Below are positions 9,854-36,284 of a stretch of 64,000 nucleotides of DNA, piece by piece (position 1 is the first letter of the stretch; each line of letters begins with the position of its first letter). Origin of the DNA: a bacterium SCSIO 12741 (GTDB taxonomy: Bacteria > Bacteroidota > Bacteroidia > Flavobacteriales_G > Salibacteraceae); the NCBI GenBank assembly GCA_024398055.1, contig CP073749.1, positions 1,364,594-1,428,593 of the forward strand, in the 5' to 3' direction. The notes under the pieces are model-generated. The model saw only the letters and a list, made by a program, of their open reading frames with translations, was not told the origin of the DNA and did not search any database. A program made the position numbers and the translations under genes.

Positions 9854-9903
9854 GGTGTAGCGGAAAGCCGAAAGGCGATTTTTTGAGTTGAGTAGTTGGT
9901 TTT

Positions 9904-9940: not shown

Positions 9941-9944
9941 CCTA

Positions 9945-11243
9945 TTACGAACGATTATCCAAAAACAATATAGGCTTACGGCTCAACTCTGGAAACTGCA
10001 TTTGCTGCACTTTATCAATCGGCAAAAAAGCAATTTTAGGCGTCACTCGAATCTTGGCCTTAAGCCGCTCCTTGATTTGATGCTCAAAGAAATCAGAATG
10101 CTCCTTACTTCCAATATGAATAAGTAGCTCATCAGTACCAATTTCATTGGTGTAAGCCTCTACCACATAATTGGTGATTCCTTCCATCCGATTCAGGATA
10201 TCGTAAATGGCAGGCGGATAAACACTGGTCCCCTTCAATTTGATCATCTGCTTCTTCCGACCAATCACCGGCCCCAATCGCAGGGTATTTCTCCCACAGC
10301 TACACGGATCGGTGTAATGGCGGCAAATGTCTCCGGTGCGAAAACGCAACAAAGGCATCCCTTCAACTCCTAAGGTAGTTATCACTACTTCGCCAGGCTC
10401 ACCCGGCTGCACCGGATTGCCTTGATCATCTAAAAATTCAGTTACGATTAATTCGGGATGATGATGTCCCCCTTGCCCTGCGCTGCACTCCGTAAATGCC
10501 GTACTCATTTCCGTTGAAGCGTACGTGGAGTATAAATCAATAGGCCATTTCTCATTGATTTTTTGTCCCAAAGTATTGAGTGAAAAGTCCTCATTCCTTA
10601 AGGCTTCACCAATACAAATAGCCCGTTTAATTCCAGATTCCCGATAATCGATTCCCCGGGATTCCGCAAATTCAATCAACTTGAGAATAAAAGATGGCAC
10701 CGCGATTATGGTACTTGGCTTGATTCGATGAATGGTATCCCAATGCAATTCAGGCACTCCAGAACCCACTCTAACGATACCCGCACCCAGCTTTCGTGCA
10801 CCTAAGAAATAGGCCATCCCAGCCATAAAACGTTTATCGATGGTGGTCATCAATTGGATGTCATCTTCGTCATCACAACCAGCCGTGATAAATGACAACG
10901 CCTCGTTGTAGGCCAGCCGCTCCAGATCGCTATCTGTAAGCACAAAAGTGATTGGATCTCCCAGGGTTCCTGAAGAAGTAACGTAATCCACAATCTTTTT
11001 GGGCGGCACACAGACAAAGTCATCGTTGTGCGCGTTCAAATCATCTTTGGTGGTCAATGGAATTTGAGCGAAACCCTCCCACGAATTGATCTGATCTACG
11101 TCAATTTCTTCCTCCGCAAATCGCTTCTGGTAGAAAGGAGAGTTATCGGACAAATAGCGGAGTATCTCTTTCAGCTTCACCCATTGAGCATCGCGAATGA
11201 CCTCCATGGATTGGTATTCTAAAGCTGGCTCCAAAGGGTGCAT
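9945..11243 (-). CDS. Phenylacetate-CoA ligase-like adenylate-forming enzyme
   Basis: PaaK-family AMP-binding enzyme of 432 residues that should activate an aryl or acyl carboxylate as CoA thioester or for ACP loading. Motifs include the P-loop YVTSSGTLGDP, the adenine-binding STYASTEMSTAF, RFRTGDIC, and a Cys pair at DPCSCGRNTLRLGPV. In a flexirubin setting its likely substrate is 4-coumarate from the ammonia-lyase (inference). The ATG at 11243 lies two bases after the upstream stop codon and is preferred over a GTG at 11267 that would overlap that gene. Last gene of a three-gene minus-strand operon. Confidence 0.85.
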   Translation of the reverse strand: MHPLEPALEYQSMEVIRDAQWVKLKEILRYLSDNSPFYQKRFAEEEIDVDQINSWEGFAQIPLTTKDDLNAHNDDFVCVPPKKIVDYVTSSGTLGDPITFVLTDSDLERLAYNEALSFITAGCDDEDDIQLMTTIDKRFMAGMAYFLGARKLGAGIVRVGSGVPELHWDTIHRIKPSTIIAVPSFILKLIEFAESRGIDYRESGIKRAICIGEALRNEDFSLNTLGQKINEKWPIDLYSTYASTEMSTAFTECSAGQGGHHHPELIVTEFLDDQGNPVQPGEPGEVVITTLGVEGMPLLRFRTGDICRHYTDPCSCGRNTLRLGPVIGRKKQMIKLKGTSVYPPAIYDILNRMEGITNYVVEAYTNEIGTDELLIHIGSKEHSDFFEHQIKERLKAKIRVTPKIAFLPIDKVQQMQFPELSRKPILFLDNRS

Positions 11244-11245
11244 GG

Positions 11246-12922
11246 CTATTTTATTTTCTTCTTGCACTTCTTAATTCGTTCTTCCAGGTTTTCCCGATCA
11301 TACTCCGTAGTAAGCTCCCGCAGCATGGCCTGCTCGTAAAAATCCTTGGCCCTTTCGTAGTTGCCGGTTTCTTCAAAGTATTTTCCAACCTTGTAATAAC
11401 CCAACCAAAAATCAGGATTGGACTCCACCATTTCGTGCAACTTTTTTTCTGGGATCACCCCTTTAGGGTCTTCCAACCAAAGGTCCAGTTCTTTTTCAAT
11501 TCGGCGGAAAGTTAGGTAATTCTTGTAGTCATCGGTTTGAAGGAAATCGGACTCTGGCACGGTCAAACCTTGTTCGTGAATAGGTTCTTCGGATCGAAAC
11601 CCAGGAGCCAATTCAAATACACGATTTAGGTCATAGCAAACAAAAGCTCCCAATTGATAAGGATTTGCCGAAACCCAAACACGGAGTTTTCCAGGTTGAA
11701 AAATAATTCCGTGATGAGCCATTAACTGATTGATCGCTTTCTCATTTCCGTAACCAATCTTTTTACCTGCAAGGCCATCTGTTTCTCGTAGAATTTCAGC
11801 TACATCCGTATAGTTTAGCTTGTCCTCAGCCGCCAACAACTGATTCATTCGATCCATTCGGTATTGGCTATGCCATTTTTCAATATGCTCTAGGTTCTTT
11901 TTGTCTTTGGAAAAAGCCTCGCTTTGGAAATGATTGGAGCACACCAACTGTGGCTCTTCTACCACATATACACCCTGGTTTTTAGGGCTTTTTTCGATGA
12001 TCACGGCCTTCCCATCTTTCTGAGATCCCACCAAAATAGATTCTGAAACAAATACCTGCCGAGATTCAGCAATCTCAATAGCCTCTTCAATGGTGGAAGC
12101 ATATTGTAAAATTTCACGGGTAAGAATAGAAATGGGCGTTCCTGGCTTGGTCGGAATTCCAGACTTCCCTGCATTAATGGTAACGGTTAATCCCTGGGTA
12201 TTCATTCCGGAAACCACTCCCAGGAAACCGGGCCAGGAAATCATCATAAACGGAATCCCCTGATCGGGCTTCATAAAGACGACCATCTTCTCTTCCGAGA
12301 AACCTTCCCCTGCATAAAAATCAAAATTCCGGCCTAATAGAAGCCCTCCGTCTTCGGTATTGGGTCCCCAGGCGGCAAACGAGGTACACCCGACCAGCAT
12401 CAAATCCTGCAAGGCATGGCCAATATCGTGAGCTCCATGAAGGTTGAGCGCCCGAAAATACTTGGGTCCTACCCAGTCGAACCGGTCAGAAATGAAATAA
12501 GAAGTACCCAATAGCTCCTGCTGGTACTCCGGAATAAAGTAGTAGGGTAAATTCCGATTAAAAACAGCCACAAACTTTCTCAATCGATTGAGTTTTGCTG
12601 AGTCGGGAACAATAGTTTTGATCTGGTTAAAAAAGACCTTTTCCTGATTGGCCATCAAGTCATTGGACAAGATACCGTATTGCACACCTCGATCAAAAGG
12701 CTTGCCTTCCAGGTACATTTCCCAAAGACCGTAGGAGTTTTTGCGCAACCAGTTGGAATCGGAGTAATAATGATTCACTCCAAACTCATGGCGGGTAGAA
12801 TCCACCCAGGCAAGATTTCCTTCAGGCTCGGGTTTCTTTCTTTTCTCGTAGAAATTGTCGCAGCTCGACAGGCTAATCAACGTCCCGATTAACAGGACAA
12901 ACAGAAGAGGATTAAACCTCAT
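11246..12922 (-). CDS. C45-family Ntn-hydrolase/acyltransferase lipoprotein with C-terminal TPR
   Basis: Predicted lipoprotein (lipobox SLSSC, Cys21) of 558 residues. The core resembles acyl-CoA:6-aminopenicillanate acyltransferase, a self-cleaving N-terminal nucleophile family: the block VGCTSFAAWGPNTEDGG places the nucleophile at Cys179, followed by LLLGRNFDF. A tail of about 60 residues looks TPR-like (NYERAKDFYEQAM). Such enzymes hydrolyse or form amide and ester bonds, so in this locus it may act on the pigment ester outside the inner membrane. It overlaps the FAD enzyme gene by 11 bases and precedes the ligase gene by 2. Confidence 0.82.
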   Translation of the reverse strand: MRFNPLLFVLLIGTLISLSSCDNFYEKRKKPEPEGNLAWVDSTRHEFGVNHYYSDSNWLRKNSYGLWEMYLEGKPFDRGVQYGILSNDLMANQEKVFFNQIKTIVPDSAKLNRLRKFVAVFNRNLPYYFIPEYQQELLGTSYFISDRFDWVGPKYFRALNLHGAHDIGHALQDLMLVGCTSFAAWGPNTEDGGLLLGRNFDFYAGEGFSEEKMVVFMKPDQGIPFMMISWPGFLGVVSGMNTQGLTVTINAGKSGIPTKPGTPISILTREILQYASTIEEAIEIAESRQVFVSESILVGSQKDGKAVIIEKSPKNQGVYVVEEPQLVCSNHFQSEAFSKDKKNLEHIEKWHSQYRMDRMNQLLAAEDKLNYTDVAEILRETDGLAGKKIGYGNEKAINQLMAHHGIIFQPGKLRVWVSANPYQLGAFVCYDLNRVFELAPGFRSEEPIHEQGLTVPESDFLQTDDYKNYLTFRRIEKELDLWLEDPKGVIPEKKLHEMVESNPDFWLGYYKVGKYFEETGNYERAKDFYEQAMLRELTTEYDRENLEERIKKCKKKIK

Positions 12923-17782: not shown

Positions 17783-18037
17783 ATGGATCGAGAAGAGATT
17801 ATTGAAAAAGTGAATGAGTTCATGGTCGAGGAGTTCGAGGTGGAAGAAGATGATATTGCTCCAGACGCCAACCTGAAAGAAACATTAGACCTGGATAGCC
17901 TGGATTACGTTGACCTCGTAGTGGTAATCGAGCAGTACTTTGGATTCAAGGTAAAAGGCGAGGATTTTGTTCACATTAAGACTTTAGAAGACTTCTACAA
18001 CTACATCGAAAAGAAAGTAGAAGAGGCTGCTGTATAA
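17783..18037 (+). CDS. Acyl carrier protein (arm A)
   Basis: An 84-residue acidic carrier protein. Ser39 in DLDSLDYVDLV is the phosphopantetheine attachment site that tethers the growing acyl chain. It follows the ketosynthase gene by 12 bases and precedes the acyltransferase gene by 9. No phosphopantetheinyl transferase gene is visible in the window, so activation must come from elsewhere. Confidence 0.94.
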   Translation: MDREEIIEKVNEFMVEEFEVEEDDIAPDANLKETLDLDSLDYVDLVVVIEQYFGFKVKGEDFVHIKTLEDFYNYIEKKVEEAAV

Positions 18038-18046
18038 AATCGCTAC

Positions 18047-18913
18047 ATGGCTGAATGGACGGGACAATCCCGAGGGAATCTCTTAGGCTATAAAATATTT
18101 GCCTTCGTCCTCAGAAACTGGGGCGTTCAATCTGCCTATTTTGTACTCTACTTTGTTGCGGCCTATTATTTCCTGTTTTCTCCCGAAGCATTTTCCGCAC
18201 AGTATTATTATTTCCACAACCGCTTAGGCTTTGGTAAGCTTAAGAGCTGGATTTCTATATACCGCAATTACTACGTTTTTGGGCAAACCATTTTGGATAA
18301 AGTTGCTGTTTTAGGTGGATTTGAAAAAGGCTTGACCTACGACTTTGACGGGGAAGATTTGCTGGAAAAAACCCTTAAGGAAGAAAAGGGCGGAATCCTA
18401 ATTAGTGCTCACATCGGCAACTTTGAGATTGCCGGTCATTTTATGAGCCGCCTGGATTGCAAACTCAACCTGGTTACCACCAACATGGAAAAAAGTCAGA
18501 CCCAGGAATACATGGAGTCTGTGATGTCCGATCAAAAAATTAATCCCATCTACATTGTTCCCGGGAGCCTCAGTCATATGATTGAGATCAGCAAAGCGGT
18601 TAGAAACAATGAACTCGTTTGTTTTACCGGCGATCGATTTATGGGAGGCAAAACCTACACGGGAACGATTTTAGGTGAATCCGCTCGTTTTCCGGCAGGA
18701 GTATTCGACCTGGCAAGTAAACTGAAGGTTCCGGTAATCTTCGTTTATGCCATGAAGGATTCTTCTTCACACTACTACTTTTCAGCCCGATTGGCATCTG
18801 GAATCGGATTAAAACCCGAGGAAATTGTGGCTGAATTTTGCAAATCCATTGAAGAGAAATTGAACAAATACCCGCTTCAATGGTTCAACTATTACAAATT
18901 TTGGGAGGCCTAA
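18047..18913 (+). CDS. LpxL/HtrB-like lysophospholipid or lipid acyltransferase
   Basis: Membrane-bound acyltransferase of 288 residues, related to the late acyltransferases of lipid A synthesis. One N-terminal membrane segment (about 25-45) precedes the catalytic HX4E motif (His122-Ile-Gly-Asn-Phe-Glu127 in ISAHIGNFEIAG), and a later GDRFMGGKTY block fits the acceptor site. Acyl-ACP is the usual donor of this family, so the enzyme could join the polyene acyl chain to the dialkylresorcinol, as suggested for equivalent genes in aryl polyene loci. Activity on pigment is inferred. Confidence 0.86.
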   Translation: MAEWTGQSRGNLLGYKIFAFVLRNWGVQSAYFVLYFVAAYYFLFSPEAFSAQYYYFHNRLGFGKLKSWISIYRNYYVFGQTILDKVAVLGGFEKGLTYDFDGEDLLEKTLKEEKGGILISAHIGNFEIAGHFMSRLDCKLNLVTTNMEKSQTQEYMESVMSDQKINPIYIVPGSLSHMIEISKAVRNNELVCFTGDRFMGGKTYTGTILGESARFPAGVFDLASKLKVPVIFVYAMKDSSSHYYFSARLASGIGLKPEEIVAEFCKSIEEKLNKYPLQWFNYYKFWEA

Positions 18914-18948: not shown

Positions 18949-19869
18949 ATGAAAAAAGTCCTCGTACTGTATTACTCTCAAACCGGACAGCTCAAGCGAA
19001 TTCTGGATCGAGTGATGGATACGCTTCAGGAAGACTCCGAGGTGCGCGTAGATTACTGCCGGTATGAACCCGAACAAGCTTTTCCTTTCCCCTGGAACGC
19101 CAAAGCCTTTTTTGGAGCTATGCCCGATTGTGTTTTGGAAAACCCAGTGCCGATGAAACCTCTTGTCTTACCCAAAGATCAGGATTATGATCTTATCATT
19201 TTGGGCTATCAGGTATGGTTTCTATCCCCTTCTATTCCACTCAATTCTTTGCTAGGAATGCCAGAGGTAGCCGGATTGCTGAAAGACAAACCAGTAGTTA
19301 CGGTGAGCGGAGGTAGAAACATGTGGATCATGGCGCAGGAATCGGTCAAGAAAAAACTACATGGACTTCAAGCCCAGTTGGTAGGCAACATTGCTTTGGT
19401 GGATCACTCTCCCAATTTGGTGAGTGTGGTAACCATTGTTTACTGGCTTTTTCACGGAAAGACAGACAAATTGCTGGGCGTTTTTCCCAAACCCGGCGTT
19501 CAGGAAGAAGATATTGAGAATGCCTCATCATTTGGAGACCCAATTCACAAGGCACTTCAACAAGGAAACTATGAGCCTTTGCAAAGGGAGCTTGTAGAGC
19601 GTGGAGCTGTTCTGGTAAAGCCCAATATCCTGTCCATGGAAAGCAAAGCCAAGCGGGTTTTTGGTATTTGGGCCAAGCTCATTCAGGGAGCTGGAAAACA
19701 AAGTTCCGTGTTGAGAGCAATCCTCCTCAAAATCTTTGAATTTTACCTTTATTTCGTAATCCTGTTTATCTCACCCCTAATTTCAATTTTTTCTACTTTT
19801 GGCCGGATATTTGGAAAAGACGCTGTCAGAAGGAAAATTAAGTATTTTTCAGGGGTCAAGATGCAGTGA
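18949..19869 (+). CDS. darA: Dialkylresorcinol condensing enzyme DarA
   Basis: DarA condenses two beta-keto acyl intermediates into the cyclohexanedione precursor of 2,5-dialkylresorcinols, working with DarB. The 306-residue protein starts with a flavodoxin-like segment (KVLVLYYSQTGQLKRIL), contains VVTVSGGRNMWIMAQES, and ends with membrane-associated helices (about 262-290). The ATG at 18949 gives the expected KKVLVLYYSQTG start; an upstream ATG at 18880 would overlap the acyltransferase gene. The darA-darB order matches flexirubin loci. Confidence 0.87.
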   Translation: MKKVLVLYYSQTGQLKRILDRVMDTLQEDSEVRVDYCRYEPEQAFPFPWNAKAFFGAMPDCVLENPVPMKPLVLPKDQDYDLIILGYQVWFLSPSIPLNSLLGMPEVAGLLKDKPVVTVSGGRNMWIMAQESVKKKLHGLQAQLVGNIALVDHSPNLVSVVTIVYWLFHGKTDKLLGVFPKPGVQEEDIENASSFGDPIHKALQQGNYEPLQRELVERGAVLVKPNILSMESKAKRVFGIWAKLIQGAGKQSSVLRAILLKIFEFYLYFVILFISPLISIFSTFGRIFGKDAVRRKIKYFSGVKMQ

Positions 19870-19890: not shown

Positions 19891-21027
19891 ATGTCAGAAA
19901 GTGTTTACATCAATAAAATATCCCGGTTTTTACCCAACGAACCGGTAAATAATGACGAGGTTGAAGCAAAACTGGGACAGGTTTATGAGCAACCGGCCAA
20001 ATCGAGAGCCATTGTGCAACGGAGTAACAAGATTCAAACTCGTTACTACGCCCTTGACAACGACCGGAACATAACCCACACCAACGCTCAGCTCGCTGCA
20101 GAAGCTGTGAAAGGTTTAGCTGACCAGGGATTTCCCATGGACGATATGGATTTTCTAGCCTGTGGAACCTCTACTCCAGATCAACTACTTCCTTCCCATG
20201 CTGCCATGGTACAGGGAGAGATCAAATCCCGCCCTATTGAAGTCAATTCATTTATGGGTGCCTGTGTAACGGGAATGCAAGCCATGAAAAGCGCTTGGAT
20301 GGCCATTCGTACAGGGGACAAGCAACATGCTGTTTCAACGGGATCAGAAAGATGTTCTACCTGGCTGATGGCCAAGAACTACGAAAAAGAAGCTGAAAAC
20401 CTGGCTGGGTTATCCCAAAACCCAATGCTGGCTTTTGATAAAGAATTTTTGCGCTGGATGCTTTCCGACGGAGCGGGAGCTGCTCTACTGGAATCGGAGC
20501 CCAAAGGAGATCTTCCCCTCAAAGTGGAGTGGATCGACATCTGCTCCTACGCCAATGAGATGGAAAGCTGTATGTATGCCGGTGCTCGTAAAAACGAGGA
20601 TGGATCGTTAACCGGATGGTCAGAAATGCGGGAGCAGGAATGGCTGGATGAATCCACCTTTGCTTTTAAACAAGACGTAAGATTATTAGGCGGAAACATC
20701 ATGCAAATTGGCGGGCGTTTCTTTTTTGAGACCTTGCAAAAGCACAACCTCAAGCCTGATGACATTGACTACTTCCTTCCTCACATTTCATCTGAATTCT
20801 TCCGAGATAAGCTCAATGCTGAATTGGCTGCTCACGGGGTAGAAATTCCAGCTGAAAAATGGTTTACAAACCTGACTCGGGTTGGAAATGTCGGTGCCGC
20901 TTCAATCTACCTAATGTTGGATGAATTAATTCAGTCAGGAGATTTGAAAAAAGGAGATCGCATTTTCCTTTGCGTACCCGAAAGTGCTCGATTCTTGTAT
21001 GCTTACTCTTTGCTAACCGTTTGCTAA
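19891..21027 (+). CDS. darB: Beta-ketoacyl-ACP synthase III-like DarB
   Basis: FabH-fold condensing enzyme of 378 residues that supplies or couples beta-keto acyl units for DarA. The active-site Cys125 lies in FMGACVTGMQAMKSAW, the His in YFLPHISSEFF and the Asn in NLTRVGNVGAASIYLML, completing the Cys-His-Asn triad of KAS III. It begins 21 bases after darA and ends one base before the first hotdog gene. The assignment to DarB rests on the darA neighbour and the pigment context. Confidence 0.88.
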   Translation: MSESVYINKISRFLPNEPVNNDEVEAKLGQVYEQPAKSRAIVQRSNKIQTRYYALDNDRNITHTNAQLAAEAVKGLADQGFPMDDMDFLACGTSTPDQLLPSHAAMVQGEIKSRPIEVNSFMGACVTGMQAMKSAWMAIRTGDKQHAVSTGSERCSTWLMAKNYEKEAENLAGLSQNPMLAFDKEFLRWMLSDGAGAALLESEPKGDLPLKVEWIDICSYANEMESCMYAGARKNEDGSLTGWSEMREQEWLDESTFAFKQDVRLLGGNIMQIGGRFFFETLQKHNLKPDDIDYFLPHISSEFFRDKLNAELAAHGVEIPAEKWFTNLTRVGNVGAASIYLMLDELIQSGDLKKGDRIFLCVPESARFLYAYSLLTVC

Positions 21028-21028
21028 G

Positions 21029-21487
21029 ATGAGCAGCGAGTTGCAATTTCAAGGCCCGGAGATCGGCGAAGAAGCTCTACTTAAGTTTATCCCTCAACGT
21101 CCACCCATCGTTATGATGGATCGATTGCTGCACTGGGAAGAAAACAAAACCTCATCGGGTCTAACCATTGCAGACCAAAATCTTTTCTGTTCCAACGGAA
21201 AGTTTCTGGAACCTGGCATCATTGAAAACTTTGCGCAAACCATGGCGCTTCGGGTAGGTTATCAATACTTCTTAATGAACGAGCCTGCACCTACAGGATA
21301 TATTGGAAGTTTCAAAAAACTCAACATTCACCGCCTGCCATCCTCGGGAGAAGAAATTCGCACCGATATCGAAGTCATTCAGGAGATGTTTGGCGTAACG
21401 CTGGCCACTGGTAAAATGTACTCTGGAGATGAACTTCTGGCCGAGATCGAAATGAAAACCGTTATTGCCGGAGGAGACTCGAATTGA
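21029..21487 (+). CDS. Hotdog-fold dehydratase-like protein 1 (FabZ family, catalytic His missing)
   Basis: FabZ-like protein of 152 residues. The family opening is recognisable (FIPQRPPIVMMDRLL) and the catalytic glutamate region is kept (EPGIIENFAQTMALRVGY), but the usual GHFPG motif with its catalytic histidine is replaced by SNGKF. As a result it probably cannot work as a homodimeric dehydratase. It overlaps a second, similar gene by four bases, and the two likely arose by duplication. Confidence 0.8.
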   Translation: MSSELQFQGPEIGEEALLKFIPQRPPIVMMDRLLHWEENKTSSGLTIADQNLFCSNGKFLEPGIIENFAQTMALRVGYQYFLMNEPAPTGYIGSFKKLNIHRLPSSGEEIRTDIEVIQEMFGVTLATGKMYSGDELLAEIEMKTVIAGGDSN

Positions 21488-21957
21488 ACGCTTCATTCGT
21501 CAAAGAAGACTACTATGGGGGCAAGGTGGTAGACCTACTACCTCATCAACCTCCATTTTTACAGATTTCTTCCCTGACCTTGATGGAAGCCGAAGAAGCC
21601 ATCACCACACTTGAAGTAAAAGAAGACAACGTAATGGTTTGTCAAGGCCAGCTCACAGAGCCTGGACTTCTGGAGAACATGGCTCAAACGGCCGCTTTGA
21701 GTGCAGGCTATTCCTATTTCATTCAAAACCAAGGAAAATTGGTTGACTATCAACCGCCTCTGGGTTATTTAGGAGCCATTAAAAAAGTGGAGTTTCATGA
21801 ACTTCCATCGGTCAATGAATCCATTGAAACCCACACCACCATTATCAATACCCTACGAAGCGGCGAGACCGACATCTTGTTTGTTAAAGGAAAGATTCGA
21901 CAAGGCGATCGACTCTGTGCCGAAGGAGAAATTAAGGTGTTTCTCACCTACCCTTAA
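21484..21957 (+). CDS. Hotdog-fold dehydratase-like protein 2 (FabZ family, catalytic His missing)
   Basis: A 157-residue protein, paralogous to the preceding one. It keeps the N-terminal LLPHQPPFLQI and the Glu-bearing EPGLLENMAQTAALSAGYSYF block but has CQGQLTEPG where FabZ has GHFPGxP, so the catalytic histidine is again absent. The start is a TTG overlapping the previous stop (TTGA), indicating coupled translation. A heteromeric complex with its neighbour or with the arm-B hotdog protein is plausible. Confidence 0.8.
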   Translation: MNASFVKEDYYGGKVVDLLPHQPPFLQISSLTLMEAEEAITTLEVKEDNVMVCQGQLTEPGLLENMAQTAALSAGYSYFIQNQGKLVDYQPPLGYLGAIKKVEFHELPSVNESIETHTTIINTLRSGETDILFVKGKIRQGDRLCAEGEIKVFLTYP

Positions 21958-22007: not shown

Positions 22008-22409
22008 ATGAAAAAAGAGAACATTCCACAGGATGATGCAAAATTGCTGGAAGGCAAAACACGGGATCTCTGCTACGCCGTGGATGAGAATGGCAATTAC
22101 ACCACAGGTTTAAGTACTGGCTGGGATCCTAAAAATGCCGCCCTTCAGCATTCCCTCGACTACTTTAACGAACGTGCCGAAAAGGTCCTCGAAAAAGTAC
22201 GGGCTGGAAAACAAAGCCTACTCGCCTACCAAATGGAGCGACGCTACATGGACGTTTCCCTTATGGCGGACTACATGGAGCTAACAAAACGCACCGTCAA
22301 AAGACACATGCGACCCAAGTATTTTGATGCGCTCGACGAAGAGACTGTTGCCCGGTATGCTGAAATTCTACGCATCGATCCTGAGGAACTAAAAAAACTA
22401 CCCGAGTAA
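22008..22409 (+). CDS. Conserved hypothetical protein with a helix-turn-helix-like segment
   Basis: Soluble protein of 133 residues with no family I can name. The N-terminal half is acidic (KTRDLCYAVDENGNYTTGLS); a helical middle follows (YFNERAEKVLEKVRAGK), then a segment resembling a helix-turn-helix (DVSLMADYMELTKRTVKRHM). It starts 50 bases after the dehydratase pair, with a possible promoter of its own, and ends 6 bases before the BtrH-like gene. A regulator or small accessory protein of the pigment pathway is possible; the function is unknown. Confidence 0.72.
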   Translation: MKKENIPQDDAKLLEGKTRDLCYAVDENGNYTTGLSTGWDPKNAALQHSLDYFNERAEKVLEKVRAGKQSLLAYQMERRYMDVSLMADYMELTKRTVKRHMRPKYFDALDEETVARYAEILRIDPEELKKLPE

Positions 22410-22415: not shown

Positions 22416-23414
22416 ATGAAATTAGACTTTGAGCACAGGCAATCTGCCCATTGTGAAAATGGTGTGTCTGCCAATCTGTTGAAGTATTACGGCATTGATG
22501 TTAATGAGCCTTTGGTATTTGGGATAGGAGCAGGACTATTCTTTTCTTACCTCCCCTTTATCAAGGTGAATCATGCGCCTGGATCGGCATTCAGAACCAT
22601 GCCGGGTTTGGTTTTTAAACGAGCTGCCAAAAACCTGGGCATTCAAATATTCCGCAAAAAATACCGTAGTGCTGAAAAGGCCATGCGCGATCTGGATAAA
22701 TCCCTCGAGCAAGGCTTGCCTGTTGGATTGCAGGTTGGTGTTTTTCATTTGACCTACTTTCCTGATCCCTATCGATTTCACTTCAACGCCCACAACCTCG
22801 TGGTTTATGGCAAAGAAGGGGACGAATACCTGATTAGTGATCCAGTAATGGAAACCACTACCCGGCTAACCCGAGCAGAAATGAAACGGGTTCGTTTTGC
22901 CAAAGGAATCTTTTCTCCCAAAGGTCAGATGTACCACCCGGTTAACGTTCCCGATTCTTTTGACCTGAAGACGGCTGTGAGAAAAGGGATTAAAAGGACG
23001 GCCAAGGATATGACCAAAATTCCAATCCCCTTCTTCGGGGTAAAAGGAATCCGCTTTCTGGCCAAAGACATTCGTAAATGGCAGAAGAAACACGGGGATA
23101 AAAAAGCCGCTTTGTACCTCGCCGCTGTGGTTAGAATGCAAGAAGAAATTGGAACCGGTGGAGCTGGATTTCGATTCCTGTACGCGGCATTCCTACAAGA
23201 GGCCGCCAAGATTCTTCAGATTGATGAGCTCAATGAGCTATCTACTCAAATGACTCAGGTAGGCGACCTATGGCGTGAGTTTGCCTTGGCCGCTTCACGG
23301 ATTTACAAAGACCGAAGCAAAGATCCAAAAGGCTACGACTCAGCTGCTGATCTTCTGGTGGAAATTGCTGCCCGGGAAGAAAAAATATTTACCCGACTCC
23401 TCAAATTGGTCTAA
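22416..23414 (+). CDS. BtrH-like (butirosin biosynthesis protein H, N-terminal domain) acyltransferase or peptidase-like protein
   Basis: Protein of 332 residues with a BtrH N-terminal domain, a papain/C39-like fold. In butirosin synthesis BtrH moves an acyl chain from an ACP to an acceptor. Candidate catalytic residues are Cys13 (SAHCENGVSANLL), His126 (NAHNLVVYG) and Asp142 (LISDPVM). The C-terminal half (about 180-330) is helical and resembles DUF4872. Its place in an operon with two ACP-dependent arms suggests ester formation between polyene-ACP and the resorcinol (inference). The last base of its stop codon is the first base of the ABC ATPase ATG. Confidence 0.78.
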   Translation: MKLDFEHRQSAHCENGVSANLLKYYGIDVNEPLVFGIGAGLFFSYLPFIKVNHAPGSAFRTMPGLVFKRAAKNLGIQIFRKKYRSAEKAMRDLDKSLEQGLPVGLQVGVFHLTYFPDPYRFHFNAHNLVVYGKEGDEYLISDPVMETTTRLTRAEMKRVRFAKGIFSPKGQMYHPVNVPDSFDLKTAVRKGIKRTAKDMTKIPIPFFGVKGIRFLAKDIRKWQKKHGDKKAALYLAAVVRMQEEIGTGGAGFRFLYAAFLQEAAKILQIDELNELSTQMTQVGDLWREFALAASRIYKDRSKDPKGYDSAADLLVEIAAREEKIFTRLLKLV

Positions 23415-24172
23415 TGGCAACAGCTGCCATAGCGATTCAGAACCTTAGAAAGACCTTTGGCAAAGAAGGCTTTGTGGCCTTAGATAAGATTAGTTTTTCC
23501 ATTCCACAGGGCAGTCTGTTTGGTTTATTGGGGCCCAATGGAGCTGGAAAAACCACCCTCATTTCCATATTGAGCGGAACCTTGGCTCCAGGTAGTGGAG
23601 AGGTGACCGTTGGCGGGTTTTCGTTACCTCGACAGATTCACGAGCTGCATCGAAAAATTGGTATCGTCCCGCAAGAAATAGCCTTGTATCAAAGCCTGAC
23701 TCCATTAGAAAACCTCAAGTACTTTGGCCGGTTAATGAAACTAAGCTCTTCGGAAATTCAAACCCGGAGCGACTATTTCCTCAAGCAATTTGGGCTTTAC
23801 GAGGTTAGGAATAAACCCGTTCAAAAGTTTAGTGGTGGCATGAAGCGTCGGCTAAACCTGATTGCCGGATTGATGAACGAACCCGAAATCCTTTTTCTGG
23901 ACGAACCTACTGAGGGAATTGATGTGCAAAGCCGCAATGCGATTTTGACCTTCTTGAAAAAACTAAACCAAGAAAAGGGAACGACCATCATTTACACCAG
24001 CCATCTGCTCAGTGAAGTGGAAGGACTCTGCGAAGAGCTCCTAATCATGGACCAGGGAAAGGTTAAACTTCAAGGAAGCTGGGCCCAAATCAAAGAACAA
24101 ACGGGTAACGCGTCCACTTTGGAAGAAGCCTTTTTGGCCCTTACTGGAACCGAATACCGCGATCAGTCATGA
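23414..24172 (+). CDS. ABC-2 type transporter ATP-binding protein
   Basis: ATPase of 252 residues that energises the membrane protein encoded next. Walker A is GPNGAGKTT, the Q-loop lies in IGIVPQEIALYQSLTPLENL, the signature is FSGGMKRRLNL, and Walker B is ILFLDEPTEGID, with the switch histidine in IYTSHLLSEVE. The SGGMKRR form is typical of drug, lipid or polysaccharide exporters of the ABC-2 class. Four-base overlap (ATGA) with the permease gene. A likely pigment or precursor exporter. Confidence 0.93.
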   Translation: MATAAIAIQNLRKTFGKEGFVALDKISFSIPQGSLFGLLGPNGAGKTTLISILSGTLAPGSGEVTVGGFSLPRQIHELHRKIGIVPQEIALYQSLTPLENLKYFGRLMKLSSSEIQTRSDYFLKQFGLYEVRNKPVQKFSGGMKRRLNLIAGLMNEPEILFLDEPTEGIDVQSRNAILTFLKKLNQEKGTTIIYTSHLLSEVEGLCEELLIMDQGKVKLQGSWAQIKEQTGNASTLEEAFLALTGTEYRDQS

Positions 24173-25452
24173 GAATTATCGCGGCTGAAATACAAAAAGA
24201 ACTGCTGCTCCTCTTTCGGGACAAAGCCGGGCTGGCTCTGCTTTTCATCATGCCGGTTCTGCTGGTTGTGGTAATGACCTACATTCAGGATGCTACCTTT
24301 AGAGCCATTTCTACCGAAGGTGTGGAAGTACTTTGGATGGATGAGGACCAATCCAAATTGAGCGAAAAAATTAAAGATCGTCTGAATGCATCGGGCCACT
24401 ATAGCCTGGTGGAACCCGAAGGAGATGATTTAGTCAACTCTGCTCGCAATCAAATTGCGGAAGGAAAGTACCAGGTTGGCATTTTGATTCCAGCTGGATT
24501 TGAAAAACACTTTAAGCACCAGGTAAAAGGACGCGTAGATAGCTTGCTGACCCAATTTGGCATTGGAGATAGCGGCAAGATCAAGAAAGCAGTTCCTCCG
24601 GCCGTAAGCATCCGCATTCTCTTTGACCCCTTAACTCAAGCCAACTTTAAATCAGGTATTGAGAATGGCTTAAGAGGTTATATCAATGAAGTGGAGACCA
24701 AGATTAGTTTTCAGGTTTTCCAATCACGTTTATCTGCTCACTTCCCCTATAACCCATCAGGAAAGAGCAAGGAACTTCCCCCATTGATTCAAATGGAGGA
24801 TGAGTATGTCTACAAAGGAGGGCTCCAGTCGCTACCCAGCTCTACCCAACACAATATTCCCGCCTGGACTGTTTTTGCCATATTCTTTATCGTGGTATCC
24901 TTCTCGCAGCGCATTGTGGAAGAACGTAACAGCGGCGTCAATAGTCGATTGTTGTCCTTACCTGCTCCTGCATCCTTGCTGTATTTGGGTAAGTCCATCA
25001 CCTACATAGCTATCAGCTTAACACAAACCCTCCTCATTTTACTGATTGGCTTCTTCGTCATTCCCTGGATTGGTCTCCCTAAGCTGGAGATGAATGGCTC
25101 GATGTTGATTTTGTTTTTGTTTAGCATCACCGTATCACTGGCCTCTTCGGGGTTGGCCCTGTTGCTGGGCGAGTTTGCCCGAACCCGGGATCAAGCTGCC
25201 TCTTTTGGTTCCGTTGGCGTGATCATCTTAGCTGCTTTAGGTGGCGTTTGGGTTCCTGAATTCGCCATGCCATCTGCCTTGCAAACAGCCAGTCACATAT
25301 CACCTTTAAACTGGGCCCTTAGCGGCTACTACTCCATCATCATTCGGGGTAAAGCAGGAATGGACCTACTCTGGAACGCCTTCTTTTTAATCCTGTTTTT
25401 TGGATGTACATTTGGCCTCTCAATCTGGAGAAAAAAGCAATCGATTGGATAA
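24169..25452 (+). CDS. ABC-2 type transporter permease
   Basis: Membrane subunit of 427 residues: one helix near residues 21-38, a large extracytoplasmic domain (about 45-235), then five helices from about 238 onward (PAWTVFAIFFIVVSFSQRIV to the C-terminus). This is the ABC-2 (YhgE/DrrB-like) topology. It partners the ATPase encoded just upstream. The stop codon overlaps the TTG start of the thioesterase. The substrate is inferred to be a lipid-like pigment intermediate from the genes around it. Confidence 0.92.
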   Translation: MRIIAAEIQKELLLLFRDKAGLALLFIMPVLLVVVMTYIQDATFRAISTEGVEVLWMDEDQSKLSEKIKDRLNASGHYSLVEPEGDDLVNSARNQIAEGKYQVGILIPAGFEKHFKHQVKGRVDSLLTQFGIGDSGKIKKAVPPAVSIRILFDPLTQANFKSGIENGLRGYINEVETKISFQVFQSRLSAHFPYNPSGKSKELPPLIQMEDEYVYKGGLQSLPSSTQHNIPAWTVFAIFFIVVSFSQRIVEERNSGVNSRLLSLPAPASLLYLGKSITYIAISLTQTLLILLIGFFVIPWIGLPKLEMNGSMLILFLFSITVSLASSGLALLLGEFARTRDQAASFGSVGVIILAALGGVWVPEFAMPSALQTASHISPLNWALSGYYSIIIRGKAGMDLLWNAFFLILFFGCTFGLSIWRKKQSIG

Positions 25453-25914: not shown

Positions 25915-26697
25915 ATGACTGCAGAAGTTCTCGCCAACGAATTCGAATCCTTTCGAGGAGCCCTCAAAGCTTACATTTTAAGAATGACCGCCAGTGTGGA
26001 GGACACGGAGGACATTGTTCAAGACGCCTACCTCAAGGCCCATGATAAAATCGATGGTTTTAAAGGGGATTCCAGTATCAAAACCTGGGTATTTGCCATT
26101 GCATCGAACCTGGCCCGGGATTTACTCAGGTCCAAGAAAAGATGGCCGGAAAACGTTACTGATATCTGCAAGGAAGCCGCTCTGAGCAACCCCCAATTCT
26201 TTGGTGAGGCGATGCAAATCCGGCAGACATCGCCCCAAGGGAATTTTGAGATTAAAGAGCATATCTCCTTTTGCTTTACCTGCGTCTCCAAATCGCTTCC
26301 GCTCGAACAGCATCTCATTCTGTTGCTCAAGGAAGTTCATGGATTCAAAATCAAAGAAATCAGTGCGATTACCGAGCTTAACGAAGCTATGGTCAAATAC
26401 CATCTCCATGTGGGGCGAAGCAAGATGATTGAGATTTTCGATCACCGCTGCTCCTTGATCAATAAAGAAGGTGTTTGTCATCAGTGCACTGAGCTCAACG
26501 GAATTTTCAATCCCAAACAAGATCAGGCCGAAGCCAAAAACAAACTGGACCTGGTTAAGCAAGCCGCCAAAAAAGACAAAGAGCACCTTTTTGATCTGCG
26601 CATGCAAATTGTACAAGAGCTGGATCCGTTTGAATCGGGTGCAGCCGAACTGCAATTGCATCATTTGGAGCATAATCGCGGAGTAATGGAAGGATAA
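25915..26697 (+). CDS. ECF-type RNA polymerase sigma factor with Cys-rich extension
   Basis: Sigma-70 family factor of 260 residues. Region 2 (about 10-75: VEDTEDIVQDAYLKAHDKIDGF, then KTWVFAIASNLARDLLR) and region 4 (about 125-180: LILLLKEVHGFKIKEISAITELNEAMVKYHLHVGR) are intact. After it comes a short Cys/His cluster (HRCSLINKEGVCHQCTEL) that could bind zinc, then a charged helical tail. No anti-sigma gene lies beside it. It opens the non-pigment segment; whether it controls the pigment genes is unknown. Confidence 0.9.
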   Translation: MTAEVLANEFESFRGALKAYILRMTASVEDTEDIVQDAYLKAHDKIDGFKGDSSIKTWVFAIASNLARDLLRSKKRWPENVTDICKEAALSNPQFFGEAMQIRQTSPQGNFEIKEHISFCFTCVSKSLPLEQHLILLLKEVHGFKIKEISAITELNEAMVKYHLHVGRSKMIEIFDHRCSLINKEGVCHQCTELNGIFNPKQDQAEAKNKLDLVKQAAKKDKEHLFDLRMQIVQELDPFESGAAELQLHHLEHNRGVMEG

Positions 26698-26866
26698 CAA
26701 TCTTAAATGATCAATCCGAAGGTGATCGGATCAATTTTTATTTGGGACTTAAAAATTTCCTCACATCTCAGCCCTCACACTCGTTCTGAAAAAATTTTCA
26801 ATTTTTTCCCTCCAAATCCTATCGTTTTCTTTTCACCAGCCGTCAAAGGGTAAAATCACTTATAAA

Positions 26867-27376
26867 ATGAAACTATTCTTAACCCTTTTGATGATGACTA
26901 CATTGGCAACTTCTGCGGCGCAAAATGGAAAGGCCGTAACGACTAAAAAGGCTTTTAGCCAAGAAACTTCCGTGAGCATTCGAATCCATGCAGACGCCTC
27001 CACGATTTGGGCACTTCTAACAAACGCCTCGGACTTTCCGCGCTGGAATTCTACCATTACTTCCCTGGAAGGAAGCATTGAGGTGGGCCAGAAAATTCAC
27101 CTAAAATCAGTACTGGATGACAAGCGGACTTTTAAAATTAAAATTCGATTGATGGAAGCTCCTCATCGTATGGTTTGGGGAGACAGCCAGGGAGAACGCG
27201 TATTTACCCTGACCCCGAACGAAGATGGAAGTGTTACCTTTAGCATGCGTGAAAAAATTGGCGGACTGATGTTTCCTATGTACAAAGGATATCTTCCCCC
27301 ATTTGAAGAGAACTTCGAACAATACGCACGGGACCTGAAAAACGAAGCAGAAACAATAGCTAATCTCAAAAACTGA
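26867..27376 (+). CDS. Exported SRPBCC (START/Bet v 1-like) family protein
   Basis: Protein of 169 residues with a signal peptide (residues 1-18, ending ATSAAQ). An SRPBCC fold follows, with the typical start SVSIRIHADASTIWALLTNASDFPRWNSTITSLEG and a conserved end (FEENFEQYARDLKNEAE). These domains bind hydrophobic ligands. It lies one base before the next gene and is probably co-transcribed with it. The 169-base gap upstream holds AT-rich sequence in which I see no clear promoter. Ligand unknown. Confidence 0.86.
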   Translation: MKLFLTLLMMTTLATSAAQNGKAVTTKKAFSQETSVSIRIHADASTIWALLTNASDFPRWNSTITSLEGSIEVGQKIHLKSVLDDKRTFKIKIRLMEAPHRMVWGDSQGERVFTLTPNEDGSVTFSMREKIGGLMFPMYKGYLPPFEENFEQYARDLKNEAETIANLKN

Positions 27377-27377
27377 T

Positions 27378-27779
27378 ATGGAAAAGCGAGGAAAAGACAA
27401 TCCCTGGATTTTAAAAACACCACCCCAAAGCTCTACCTACGAAATGTATGTAGATGAAAAAGATGGCGAGGAAATTATCGTCTGTACGGTTGGTAAGACA
27501 GTTCTTCACTACCGCTACCGCTGCCTGGAAGATCTACACAAAATGCTAACCGATCACGGTGACTGGATACTTTTAGGGAGCAAGGATGAAAAACAAGATA
27601 CCAAGCCCGATACGGTAGAACACTGGGCACGCTCGGCAGACAATCCTGTTGGTGGTTGGTATGGCCTTAAGAAAAACTTTCGCGGACGCTTTGCGATGTA
27701 CATTCCTCCTTTGATGGAAGAACTTGGATTGGCCGAAGTGGAACACAACAAACGCAACAACCGAATGAAGGCCTTGTAA
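27378..27779 (+). CDS. Conserved hypothetical protein (DUF6855-like)
   Basis: Cytoplasmic protein of 133 residues. From memory it matches the DUF6855 family: the start DNPWILKTPPQSSTYEMYVDE, the middle TVLHYRYRCLEDLHKMLTDHGDW, and the end FRGRFAMYIPPLMEELGLAEVEHN are characteristic. No catalytic motif is apparent and the function is unknown. It follows the SRPBCC gene by one base and lies upstream of the YCII/sigma-factor pair, a neighbourhood often linked to stress responses. Confidence 0.78.
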   Translation: MEKRGKDNPWILKTPPQSSTYEMYVDEKDGEEIIVCTVGKTVLHYRYRCLEDLHKMLTDHGDWILLGSKDEKQDTKPDTVEHWARSADNPVGGWYGLKKNFRGRFAMYIPPLMEELGLAEVEHNKRNNRMKAL

Positions 27780-27854
27780 TTTTTTTTCAAAGGAGTGTCC
27801 AAATCCAATAAAGCCATTCGTCTTAGGATCAGAAACACTCAAAAAAAAGAAATC

Positions 27855-28193
27855 ATGAAAGAGTACTTATTTATTATTCGCGGCGGAGAAGACATGTCGA
27901 ACCACTCACCTGAGCAGATGCAAGAACACATGATGCACTGGCAAAAATGGATGGGCGGCATGGCCGAACAAGGAAAATTTGTGGGTGGTCAACCTCTTCA
28001 AGGTGAAGGAAAATCACTGGTTGAAAAAGGAACTCAGGTTATCGACAGACCCCTTGCCGAAGGAAAGGAACTCGTAGGAGGTTACTTGATCGTAAAAGCA
28101 GAAACCCTGGATGAAGCTACTGAAATGGCCAAAGGATGCCCAGGATTTGAGCACGACTGCTCCATCGAGGTACGGGAAATCCGCGCCATGTAA
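27855..28193 (+). CDS. YCII-related (DGPF domain) protein
   Basis: Small protein of 112 residues with a ferredoxin-like YCII fold (KEYLFIIRGGEDMSNHSPEQMQEHM, then VIDRPLAEGKELVGGYLIVKAETLDEATEMA). The ATG at 27855 gives the correct family start; an ORF extension upstream to 27795 is not needed. DGPF/YCII proteins are typically encoded beside ECF42 sigma factors, exactly as here, where the sigma factor gene begins 5 bases after this stop codon. The biochemical role of the family is not established. Confidence 0.9.
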   Translation: MKEYLFIIRGGEDMSNHSPEQMQEHMMHWQKWMGGMAEQGKFVGGQPLQGEGKSLVEKGTQVIDRPLAEGKELVGGYLIVKAETLDEATEMAKGCPGFEHDCSIEVREIRAM

Positions 28194-28198
28194 ATCGT

Positions 28199-29476
28199 TT
28201 GAACGAAGGAAGTAACATACACCAAACGCTAAACCATCTTTTCCGGCAAGAATCGGGAAGGATGGTGGCCGTTTTGGTTAATGTATTTGGCACCGAACAC
28301 CTGCAAATGGTGGAAGATGTGGTTCAGGATGCCTTGGTAAGCGCCTTGGAAACCTGGAAAATTAAAGGAGTTCCGGATAATCCCAGAGCCTGGCTTTATC
28401 GAACCGCAAAAAACAAAGCCATCGATATTGTAAGGCGAAACAAATTCAGCGAAACGTTTGATTTTTCGGCGCCGGAACATCAACTGCTTACTTCCGAATA
28501 CACCCTCTCTCGTACGATGGATCAATTTTGGGAAGAGACCGAAATTCAGGATGATTTCCTGGGAATGATGTTCGCCTGTTGTCATCCTGAGCTCAGCAAA
28601 GAGAACCAAATTACCTTCATCCTGAAATCCCTCTGCGGGTTCAGTACCCGCGAAGTAGCCAAGGCCTTTTTAACCGGTGAAGACACCATTTCCAAAAGGC
28701 TTTACCGAACCAAGGAGTACTTCAGAAAAAACAAGGTTAAGCTTCAAATTCCCGGACCCGATGAAATTGCCAATCGAACGGATGCTGTATTGAGTGCTAT
28801 CTACCTGGTTTTTAACGAAGGTTATAGCGCTACCCATAATGACCAGCTCATAAGGGAAGATGTTATTTCGCAGGCCATGTTGCTTTGCAAATCTTTGCTG
28901 GACAATCCCAAAACTCAGCTTCCACAGGCTTATGCCCTTATGGCCCTCATGTGTTTTCATGCCGCCCGAATTGAAGGTCGCTTGACTCGGGAAGGAGAAT
29001 TGATTCTGCTCAATCAACAGGACCGAAGCACCTGGAATGCGGAATTAATCTACAAGGGCAACGACCTGCTCAACCAGGCGGCTTTTGGAGATACGGTAAG
29101 CCCTTATCACCTTGAAGCAGCCATCGCTTATGAGCACTCCACAGCCAAGTCTTATCAAGAAACGAATTGGGAAGCCATCCTTCGATATTATGACCATTGG
29201 CTCTCCTTGGCCTTCGATCCTGTCGTTTATCTCAACCGCTGTTTGGTCCTTTTGGAATTAAAGGGTCCTCAGGCAGCCTGGGACGCCATGAACCAGATCC
29301 AGGATCACCAAAAAATGCAGAACTATTACCTCTATCATGCCGCACTCGGTGAAATACTGGACCGCTTGGGGCGAAAAGCAGAAGCCGTTCAGTTTTTAGA
29401 AGCTGCTGCGAAACTGACCCAATCAGCCCCGGAAAAGCGATTCTTAAGAGATAAAATCGCTGCCATCTGTAATTAG
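28199..29476 (+). CDS. ECF42-type RNA polymerase sigma factor with TPR-like C-terminal domain
   Basis: Sigma factor of 425 residues. Region 2 (about 20-85: VEDVVQDALVSALETWKIKGVPDNPRAWLYRTAKNKAIDIVRR) and region 4 (about 135-185: FILKSLCGFSTREVAKAFLTGEDTISKRLYRTKEYF) precede a helical C-terminal domain of more than 200 residues (DUF6596 and TPR-like). In ECF42 factors this extension replaces a separate anti-sigma factor. The start codon is TTG. It is coupled to the YCII gene and may regulate it and nearby genes. Confidence 0.9.
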   Translation: MNEGSNIHQTLNHLFRQESGRMVAVLVNVFGTEHLQMVEDVVQDALVSALETWKIKGVPDNPRAWLYRTAKNKAIDIVRRNKFSETFDFSAPEHQLLTSEYTLSRTMDQFWEETEIQDDFLGMMFACCHPELSKENQITFILKSLCGFSTREVAKAFLTGEDTISKRLYRTKEYFRKNKVKLQIPGPDEIANRTDAVLSAIYLVFNEGYSATHNDQLIREDVISQAMLLCKSLLDNPKTQLPQAYALMALMCFHAARIEGRLTREGELILLNQQDRSTWNAELIYKGNDLLNQAAFGDTVSPYHLEAAIAYEHSTAKSYQETNWEAILRYYDHWLSLAFDPVVYLNRCLVLLELKGPQAAWDAMNQIQDHQKMQNYYLYHAALGEILDRLGRKAEAVQFLEAAAKLTQSAPEKRFLRDKIAAICN

Positions 29477-29526
29477 TATTCGAGTTGCCCGTATTATTGT
29501 GATCGAAATCTGAACCGGTAAACTTC

Positions 29527-31091: not shown

Positions 31092-31173
31092 TCCACTAAG
31101 GTAAATAATCCCAATTGGCGTGCAAAAGATGCTCAAGGCATAAAACTTGTACTTTGGTCATAAACGAAATCAA

Positions 31174-33214: not shown

Positions 33215-33778
33215 ATGGCTTATGAATCGGTAAATTCCTTCGACAACTGGGTCAAAGCCTGGTACCGTTCGCGGGAAGTGGGTTATGGAAAGTTTTTTAA
33301 AATGGACCGGCTCAGCAAGCTTGGTTTTATGGCCGCTGAATTGGTTTTGGAAGGCAAAAACCTCTCCGAAAAATACGGACCCGAACGAGTAGCCGTTCTC
33401 CTGGGTAACCGGGCAGCCAGTCTGGACACAGACCGGAAGCATCACGAATCGATCAAAAATCGTGAAAACTATTTTCCGAGTCCGGCTGTCTTCGTATACA
33501 CATTGCCCAATATCGTGCTTGGAGAAATCGCCATTCGCCACACCTTTCGTGGAGAGAATGCTTTCTTCATTTTTGATAAATTTGAGCCCGGATTTTTCGT
33601 TGATCTGGCTCAGGGATTATTGGCCTCCAACAAGGCCGATGCCGTACTATTCGGCTGGGTGGATGTGGATGGAGAATCTTATGAAGCGGAACTCTATCTC
33701 GCCGAGCAAGAAGGTGGAGAATGGGGCCCATTGAGCGAAGAAAACATATCGAATTTGAAAACCAGAAATAATGGATGA
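33215..33778 (+). CDS. Ketosynthase-related small protein (beta-ketoacyl synthase N-terminal-like), start uncertain
   Basis: A protein of at least 187 residues recalling a truncated ketosynthase: KLGFMAAELVLEGKNLSEKYGPERVAVLLGNRAASLDTD, then VFVYTLPNIVLGEIAIRHTF. No active-site Cys motif is present. Homologous-looking residues continue upstream in frame (HISSYAILNRAQAWCNNQ), but between the in-frame stop at 33131 and the ATG at 33215 there is no ATG, GTG or TTG, only CTG (33182), ATA and ATC codons. The true start may be non-canonical, or a base may be wrong. It overlaps the second ACP gene by 8 bases. Confidence 0.75.
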   Translation: MAYESVNSFDNWVKAWYRSREVGYGKFFKMDRLSKLGFMAAELVLEGKNLSEKYGPERVAVLLGNRAASLDTDRKHHESIKNRENYFPSPAVFVYTLPNIVLGEIAIRHTFRGENAFFIFDKFEPGFFVDLAQGLLASNKADAVLFGWVDVDGESYEAELYLAEQEGGEWGPLSEENISNLKTRNNG

Positions 33779-34028
33779 ATTGATTGTAAAACTGAAGGAG
33801 CAAATCATCGAGCAATTGAACCTCGAAGACATGACCCCAGATGATATTGATGCGGATGCTCCTCTGTTTGGAGATGGATTGGGATTGGATTCAATCGACG
33901 CATTGGAACTAATCGTGCTGATGGAGAAATTCTATGGCATTAAAATCCAAGACCCGAAAGAAGGTCAAAAGATTTTCCTTTCTGTACGGTCTATCGCCGA
34001 ATTTATTCAGAACCACCAAAACGCCTAA
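33771..34028 (+). CDS. Acyl carrier protein (arm B)
   Basis: An 85-residue carrier protein with phosphopantetheine site Ser41 (GLGLDSIDALELIV). The LGLDSID form is typical of aryl polyene and fatty-acid-like ACPs, slightly different from the arm-A ACP (DLDSLDYVDL), so the two may carry different chains, for example polyene versus dialkylresorcinol precursors. It overlaps the previous gene by 8 bases and ends 3 bases before the TTG start of the next ketosynthase. Confidence 0.94.
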   Translation: MDELIVKLKEQIIEQLNLEDMTPDDIDADAPLFGDGLGLDSIDALELIVLMEKFYGIKIQDPKEGQKIFLSVRSIAEFIQNHQNA

Positions 34029-35228: not shown

Positions 35229-36284
35229 ATGGAAATGTATCTAAATGGCATCGGTTGTGTAGCTCCTCAGAATACTTCTGAGAAACCCTTATTTGCTGAA
35301 CCCCTGGGCGAAACGGATGTGCGCAGAAACATCGTAAAACCCAACTACAAAGAATACATCAATCCTGCTATGATTCGTCGAATGGGTACGGCGATCAAAA
35401 TGGGTGTTGTGGCCTCTAAGCAAGCCTTGAGTCAAGCCGGCACCGACATGCCAGATGCCATTATCGCAGGAACTGGATTGGGCTGCCAGCAGGATAGTGA
35501 AAAATTTCTCACCGCGATTATCGATCATGATGAGCAGTTTTTGACACCTACCTCTTTCATTCAATCTACCCATAACACGGTTGCCGGGCAGGTAGCACTT
35601 ATGCTCAAGTGCCGGGCCTACAACTTTACCTATTGCCACCGGGGATTTTCCTTCGAAAACACTTTGGTTGATGCGGCTTTAGCTCTGGAAGAGGGCTGGG
35701 CACAACAAGTACTGGCCCTTGGCGTAGATGAAATGACGACTCATACCCTGGAAGTTTTCCAGCGAATAGGGCTCAACGTAAAAGATGCTGAACCGACTCT
35801 GGATCTGCTGAAAAGCGAACAAAAAGGATCTGTTTATGGAGAAGGTGCCACCGCATTCGTTCTTTCTCATCAGCCCAGTGAACACAACTTTGGGCGAATC
35901 TCGGCAGTAAAAACGCTGTACAAACCGACAAACGAACAGCAGGTGTTGGATTGGATCAATTCTACCTTGCAAGAATCCGGGGCTTCCCTTAACGACATCG
36001 ACTTGGTGTTGCTTGGAAAAAACGGAAATCCCGAAGAAAATCGCTGGTACGAAGCCGTAGAAGCTTCTGCCTCTACTCCATCCATCGGTGCATTTAAACA
36101 CCTCGTTGGAGAATACCACACAGCTAGTGCTTTCGCCCTTTGGTTGGGCGCATCCATTCTACAGGATCAAGAAGTTCCGGAAGTTGTATTCACTCGAAAA
36201 AACACAACAACCGATTGGAACCGAATCCTGATTTATAACCAATACGACCACCGCGATCACTCCTTAATTTTATTGGAAAAATGA
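35229..36284 (+). CDS. Chain-length-factor-like ketosynthase homologue (no catalytic Cys)
   Basis: Protein of 351 residues with a ketosynthase fold but without catalytic residues: where a synthase has its Cys-containing nucleophile elbow, this protein reads YCHRGFSFENTLVDAALAL, and neither the HGTxT nor the GHxxxAAG histidine motif is found. Such partners (KSbeta or chain length factors) dimerise with an active ketosynthase and shape chain length. It directly follows the second arm-B ketosynthase and overlaps the deacetylase gene by four bases. Confidence 0.88.
   Translation: MEMYLNGIGCVAPQNTSEKPLFAEPLGETDVRRNIVKPNYKEYINPAMIRRMGTAIKMGVVASKQALSQAGTDMPDAIIAGTGLGCQQDSEKFLTAIIDHDEQFLTPTSFIQSTHNTVAGQVALMLKCRAYNFTYCHRGFSFENTLVDAALALEEGWAQQVLALGVDEMTTHTLEVFQRIGLNVKDAEPTLDLLKSEQKGSVYGEGATAFVLSHQPSEHNFGRISAVKTLYKPTNEQQVLDWINSTLQESGASLNDIDLVLLGKNGNPEENRWYEAVEASASTPSIGAFKHLVGEYHTASAFALWLGASILQDQEVPEVVFTRKNTTTDWNRILIYNQYDHRDHSLILLEK

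Follow-up and report, generated by a model that had tools for sequence, protein, structure and literature searches.

The darH gene occupies 22416..23414 on the forward strand of the window (the whole 64,000-nucleotide stretch that was analysed) and is a 332-residue open reading frame with an ATG start. Between 15813 and 25867 all genes have the same orientation, are separated by -5 to 50 bases, and encode in order a ketoreductase, a KS, ACP 1, an LpxL-like acyltransferase, DarA, DarB, two dehydratase-like proteins, DarG, DarH, an ABC transporter ATPase and permease, and a thioesterase-like protein. Because of this close packing on one strand, the genes fit a single operon, which includes the ACP upstream of darH (ACP 1, 17783..18037, forward strand, LDSLD motif). 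The other forward-strand members considered here are the LpxL-like gene (18047..18913), darA (18949..19869, flavodoxin-like), darB (19891..21027, KSIII-like dialkylresorcinol synthase, 572 bits against 550 for NF053539), the two FabZ-like dehydratase genes (21029..21957), darG (22008..22409, 133 residues) and the genes of the ABC transporter ATPase (23414..24172) and permease (24169..25452). DarA is assigned the aromatising step of the dialkylresorcinol (DAR) (PMC3949708, Table 1). The earlier note had placed DarA and DarB just before DarH; they do lie upstream, but three genes (the two dehydratase genes and darG) stand between darB and darH.

A second ACP gene (ACP 2, 33771..34028, forward strand, LDSID motif) was found 10.4 kb from darH, past about 6 kb of unrelated genes of which one is on the opposite strand (30729-31136). 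Because of this intervening block ACP 2 is outside the darH operon here, so that of the two ACP genes formerly ascribed to the operon only the upstream one is retained. Both are possible donor carriers, and the ACP 2 homologue adjoins the DarH and ABC genes in several other genomes. The block of about 6 kb (25915-31905) interrupts the flexirubin cluster, parting the thioesterase-like gene from the KS that follows it; in most relatives examined the cluster is contiguous across this point. From the look of their sequences, we take its genes to include two sigma-factor-like genes, an SRPBCC-like gene and a YCII-like gene, among others. Beyond it lies the gene of the chain-length-factor-like protein (CLF) of the aryl polyene (APE), at 35229..36284 on the forward strand. 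On the reverse strand are a C45-family lipoprotein (11246..12922, 239 bits, NCBIfam) and FlxY of the coumarate-CoA ligase family (9945..11267, 699 bits against 520 for NF053551). An MMPL-type exporter is divided between two frames that overlap (39880-40353 and 40293-43568), an arrangement suggestive of a frameshift. No tRNA genes turned up when the window was scanned for them.

The DarH product matched BtrH_N at residues 12-143 (165 bits, cut-off 29.7) and DUF4872 at residues 155-328 (210 bits) in Pfam; with both domains present, the BtrH-like protein described in the earlier note is real. Its residues 4-328 also matched positions 1-324 of the 325 in NF053550, an equivalog model of NCBIfam release 20.0, with 494.3 bits (cut-off 300 bits), and the family is already named there 'BtrH-related acyltransferase DarH'. 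No other BtrH_N protein was found in the source genome. By domain content DarH would belong to the BtrH-type papain-fold carrier-protein acyltransferases, which combine BtrH_N and DUF4872. Three residues that had been singled out as kept are present, namely Cys13, the proposed nucleophile (codon 22452..22454), His126 (22791..22793) and Asp142 (22839..22841), all on the forward strand. They did not vary in the 16 rows of alignment A2, nor in the nine DarH rows of A6, a wider alignment that takes in DarH of Pseudomonadota. Arg287, Lys/Arg298 and Lys/Arg300 were found in all 19 distinct DarH rows of A2 and A6 together; among five other family members a basic residue was missing at 298 in all five, at 287 in four and at 300 in three. 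By a rough positional offset only, these DarH-specific basic residues correspond to the site of carrier binding in CcbD.

An AF2 model of DarH was built from two sequences (those of the window and of locus L064) and had a pLDDT of 72 and a pTM of 0.78, with poor loops near the active site (6-12 and 108-125). The top fold matches (Foldseek, VIA-align) were AziU3, CtaG and CcbD, over nearly the whole chain (282-295 residues), CcbD appearing in the VIA-align list only. Z scores were 17.9-18.8 for CtaG (288 residues at an rmsd of 4.1 for the value of 18.8), 17.7-18.1 for AziU3 and 15.9-16.3 for CcbD, against about 13 and below for papain-like domains alone. Identity in the structural alignments with CtaG and CcbD was only 10-14%. 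A His-Asp spacing of 16 is common to DarH and CtaG, as read from the variant names C11A, H128A and D144N. Searching PDB sequences with a DarH profile returned mostly designed coiled coils, and AziU3 only at E 0.25. The model predicts for DarH the two-domain fold of CtaG and CcbD, with a putative Cys-His-Asp/Glu triad.

Co-occurrence was counted using a profile of the chain-length-factor-like protein (A1) as the APE marker. In an earlier phylum sample of 238 genomes, DarH was over cut-off in 17, and the same 17 held full-length canonical DarB (16 over cut-off, and G017 at 519 bits); the APE marker was in those 17 and in G118, a genome with neither DarB nor DarH. The class sample comprised 376 genomes of the window's class, nine of them common to those 17. 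In it 71 genomes had the APE marker, 63 had DarH and 72 had DarB at E<=1e-40; DarB was counted in 65, the seven with the long type alone (616-635 aa) being left out. The earlier note had suggested asking whether BtrH-domain genes are equally frequent without darA/darB. They are not: DarH was present in 62/64 genomes with DarB and the APE marker and in 0/7 with the marker alone. It was in 0/304 genomes with neither and in the single genome with DarB and no APE marker. Fisher's exact test among the APE genomes gave p = 2.7e-8, with counts that ignore relatedness. The seven APE genomes without DarB fall, by the tool's labels, into six genera and six families, three of which (f1, f5 and f94) also contain DAR genomes with DarH. 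A broader BtrH_N search (E<=0.001) covered 16 genomes (these seven, G297, G360, G271 and six with long DarB only); none of the eight APE genomes without a DAR locus gave a match, and of the 16 only G271 did. By distribution, DarH behaves as a gene of the flexirubin cluster, found where DAR and APE genes are both present and absent where APE genes stand alone.

Several observations bear on how far this pattern reaches. Relatives of DarH below the cut-off were the sole match in 6/376 genomes, none with DarB or the APE marker, and plasmid-borne genes of the BtrH family lie in unrelated gene settings, which together indicate other functions in the wider family. The pattern of DarH is shared by DarG and the ABC transporter, and co-occurrence alone does not single out DarH. 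For 15 loci, distances between pairs were computed for DarH, DarB and CLF; the three sets correlate with one another at 0.93-0.96 and give no preference for DarB or CLF as the partner of DarH. The known DAR-only producers (Pseudomonas chlororaphis and Photorhabdus), for which the accessible portions of the papers describe darABC(SR) loci only, lie outside the genome samples, and the distribution therefore does not fully separate a role in DAR from a role in the ester.

The genomes that depart from the pattern were inspected individually. G297 has DarB and the APE marker and no DarH; its darB is beside a TetR-type regulator, and darA was absent from the 20 kb fetched. It was kept in the raw counts and was not treated as a DAR locus in interpretation. 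G360 has DarA-DarB and the APE marker, and no DarH was found in its assembly of 360 contigs, where DarA-DarB lie on a contig of 5.5 kb; five other genomes with its genus label carry DarH. In G271, DarB and DarH are orphan genes on separate contigs (L065 and L066), without DarA, DarG or an APE gene in the vicinity, and the genome is an awkward case for the ester reading.

A DarB-like protein was rejected as evidence of DAR unless inspected, given the long frames of 616-635 aa in 7/376 genomes and the DarB paired with TetR in G297 and on three plasmids. One long protein was scanned, the DarB-like KSIII of G182 (L048:8422-10269, 616 aa), which proved to be a fusion with a haem-oxygenase-like iron redox domain; on a Pseudoalteromonas plasmid a DarB-like KSIII and a haem-oxygenase-like protein are separate neighbours. 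The TetR-type regulator and lone DarB-like synthase form a two-gene unit on plasmids of Prevotella, Bacteroides and Phocaeicola (L022, L023 and L024, near 9400-13100; the L023 regulator is annotated HTH-domain) and on the G297 chromosome (L051:9021-10752), with darA and darH not in view. A DarH search of plasmids matched 63 records, 45 of them from Acinetobacter. On Acinetobacter baumannii plasmids a gene of the BtrH family (L026:7968-8939) is beside genes of a P450, a ferredoxin and PaaI thioesterases. None of the 25 pattern matches among viral contigs was to a relative of DarH.

Gene order was compared among relatives. Fifteen loci (L030-L044) have the order DarA-DarB-DarG-DarH-ABC-ABC, and in every one but L044 dehydratase-like genes separate DarB from DarG. 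No more than 10 kb lies between DarH and DarB in 48/63 genomes; DarH is beside the APE CLF and away from DarB in five (G246, G282, G365, G381 and G430), and near neither in ten, for which contig ends are perhaps part of the reason. DarG-DarH and the ABC genes of L058-L060 lie inside a group of APE genes or adjoin it, and L045 has DarG-DarH on their own. An ACP and a KS, often together with a CLF-like protein, adjoin the DarH-linked ABC genes in L058, L059, L073, L088, L091, L092 and L101; some genomes have these in addition to a separate APE cluster with its own KS.

The association was also found in a second phylum. A DarB-motif search led to two contigs, one unrelated and one betaproteobacterial with darA-darB-darG-darH. 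In the class of the latter, DarB was over cut-off in 5/119 genomes (the seed G566 included), and all five canonical-DarB genomes have BtrH_N, the order darA-darB-darG-darH and APE-type clusters of low identity to the genes of the window. Two of the 119 with weaker DarB-like matches had no BtrH_N. This result agrees with the published Azoarcus dar cluster, described in the accessible part of PMC3949708 as darA, darB, darD, darE ('BtrH-like peptidase') and an ABC gene; the Azoarcus pigment arcuflavin is predicted there to be a polyene-DAR ester.

DarG is likely a partner of DarH. Its gene adjoins darH in 29/31 relative loci examined, and 13 columns are invariant over 14 proteins from two phyla. 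In NCBIfam the DarG of the window passed the subfamily model NF053536 (144 bits, cut-off 70) and missed the equivalog one (146 bits against 170). Pfam gave no match and a PDB sequence search no convincing one; the predicted model is helical and of low confidence (pLDDT 68, pTM 0.48).

Taken with the predicted fold of a carrier-dependent acyltransferase, the distribution (62/64 against 0/7) supports the earlier suggestion that this BtrH-like protein may be the ester-forming enzyme. DarH is the best-supported candidate for the enzyme joining the two halves of flexirubin, and we consider this role likely. The step had been described as not firmly assigned, and the literature found gives only a guess, FlxW; no enzyme assay or mutant of it was found in that literature, which leaves most subscription journals uncovered. 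Under the proposed mechanism, the aryl-polyene acyl chain, once complete and bound to an ACP as a thioester, would dock on the DUF4872 helices at the C-terminal end. Cys13, with activation by His126 and Asp142, would then take the acyl chain from the ACP. The acyl-enzyme would be attacked by a hydroxyl group of the dialkylresorcinol, the product of DarB and DarA, with release of the phenolic ester; the adjacent ABC transporter is the likely handler of the product. A ping-pong route for the polyenoyl group, from ACP by way of Cys13 to the resorcinol hydroxyl, is proposed because of the likeness to CcbD and CtaG and the C-terminal basic residues, and the phenol acceptor because flexirubins are esters.

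It is unlikely that the C45-family lipoprotein or the LpxL-like acyltransferase, which had been named as rival candidates, makes the ester with DarH as an accessory. LpxL-type enzymes carry out O-acylation with acyl-ACP, and C45 was present in all six flexirubin loci where the far side was covered. From gene order, C45 is probably FlxW, the 'ligase-like enzyme' proposed for the joining step in the accessible part of PMC3992019. However, of the seven APE-without-DAR loci fetched (from eight such genomes, G297 counted in), five contain an LpxL-like gene and three C45; DarG, DarH and the ABC pair were not found in these seven, save for weak generic ABC matches in L062. Neither candidate therefore tracks the resorcinol. 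C45 also starts with a lipoprotein-type signal and so would be outside the cytoplasm, away from the ACP-bound substrate.

A somewhat smaller chance is given to DarH acting in resorcinol supply, by bringing an acyl chain to DarB, or in export with the ABC transporter, like a C39 peptidase domain. DarH strictly follows DarB, even in G271 with no recognised APE gene, an ABC transporter often comes after it, and the C39 domains of ABC transporters match its N-terminal half with a Z of about 13. On the opposite side, the darA-darB pair by itself yielded the flexirubin DAR in a heterologous host (PMC3992019, in the part available), so that DarH appears not to be needed for the resorcinol. CtaG, AziU3 and CcbD also match the whole length of DarH, C-terminal domain included, and DarG-DarH occur without an adjacent ABC gene in L045, L070, L072 and L074. 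It is very improbable that DarH acylates a target other than the resorcinol, as the unrelated settings of wider BtrH-family members might suggest, or that DarG, which shares the distribution of DarH and is its neighbour in nearly all loci, is the true joining unit with DarH in support, since DarG has no recognised enzyme domain and only a helical model of low confidence.

For DarH as the joining enzyme, we lean towards a broader reading, in which it would be an ester-forming member of the BtrH/CtaG/CcbD group of papain-fold enzymes that, with DarG, makes up a portable unit joining two polyketides made separately, an ACP-bound aryl polyene and a free dialkylresorcinol, and marks hybrid pigments in Bacteroidota and Pseudomonadota. 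The orange flexirubin-type pigments have a long history of use as markers for Bacteroidota, and darG-darH is the one small gene pair to which the distribution points. If DarH does form a phenolic ester, carrier-dependent papain-fold transferases would extend beyond amides, and darG-darH would be a genome marker telling hybrid polyene-resorcinol pigments from plain aryl polyenes.

Among known systems, AziU3 of azinomycin shares the predicted fold of DarH (Z about 18) and works in a two-protein system, AziU3/U2; its chemistry, which we take to be aziridine formation, differs from that proposed for DarH. NF053550 matches the DarH of the window over its full length, and its name describes an acyltransferase of the dialkylresorcinol locus and gives no reaction. 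Azoarcus darE has the same neighbourhood as darH and comes with a polyene-DAR pigment, a likeness of gene neighbourhood and description. BtrH of butirosin has BtrH_N and DUF4872 in common with DarH and, as the earlier note had said, moves an acyl group in an ACP-dependent manner according to the available part of PMC10318531; it acylates an aminoglycoside, and both donor and acceptor differ from those of DarH. DarH shares its full-length predicted fold and putative Cys-His-Asp/Glu triad with CtaG (closthioamide) and CcbD/LmbD (lincosamides). In the accessible sections of the respective papers, CtaG moves hydroxybenzoate off a carrier protein (PMC6772006), and CcbD, which binds its carrier through C-terminal arginines, passes a carrier-bound acyl group to its Cys and on to an amine in ping-pong fashion (PMC12945683). 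A carrier-bound acyl donor is thus described for CtaG and CcbD and proposed for DarH; as far as those sections go, CtaG and CcbD/LmbD place the acyl group on an amine to give an amide, whereas DarH would use a phenol and give an ester.
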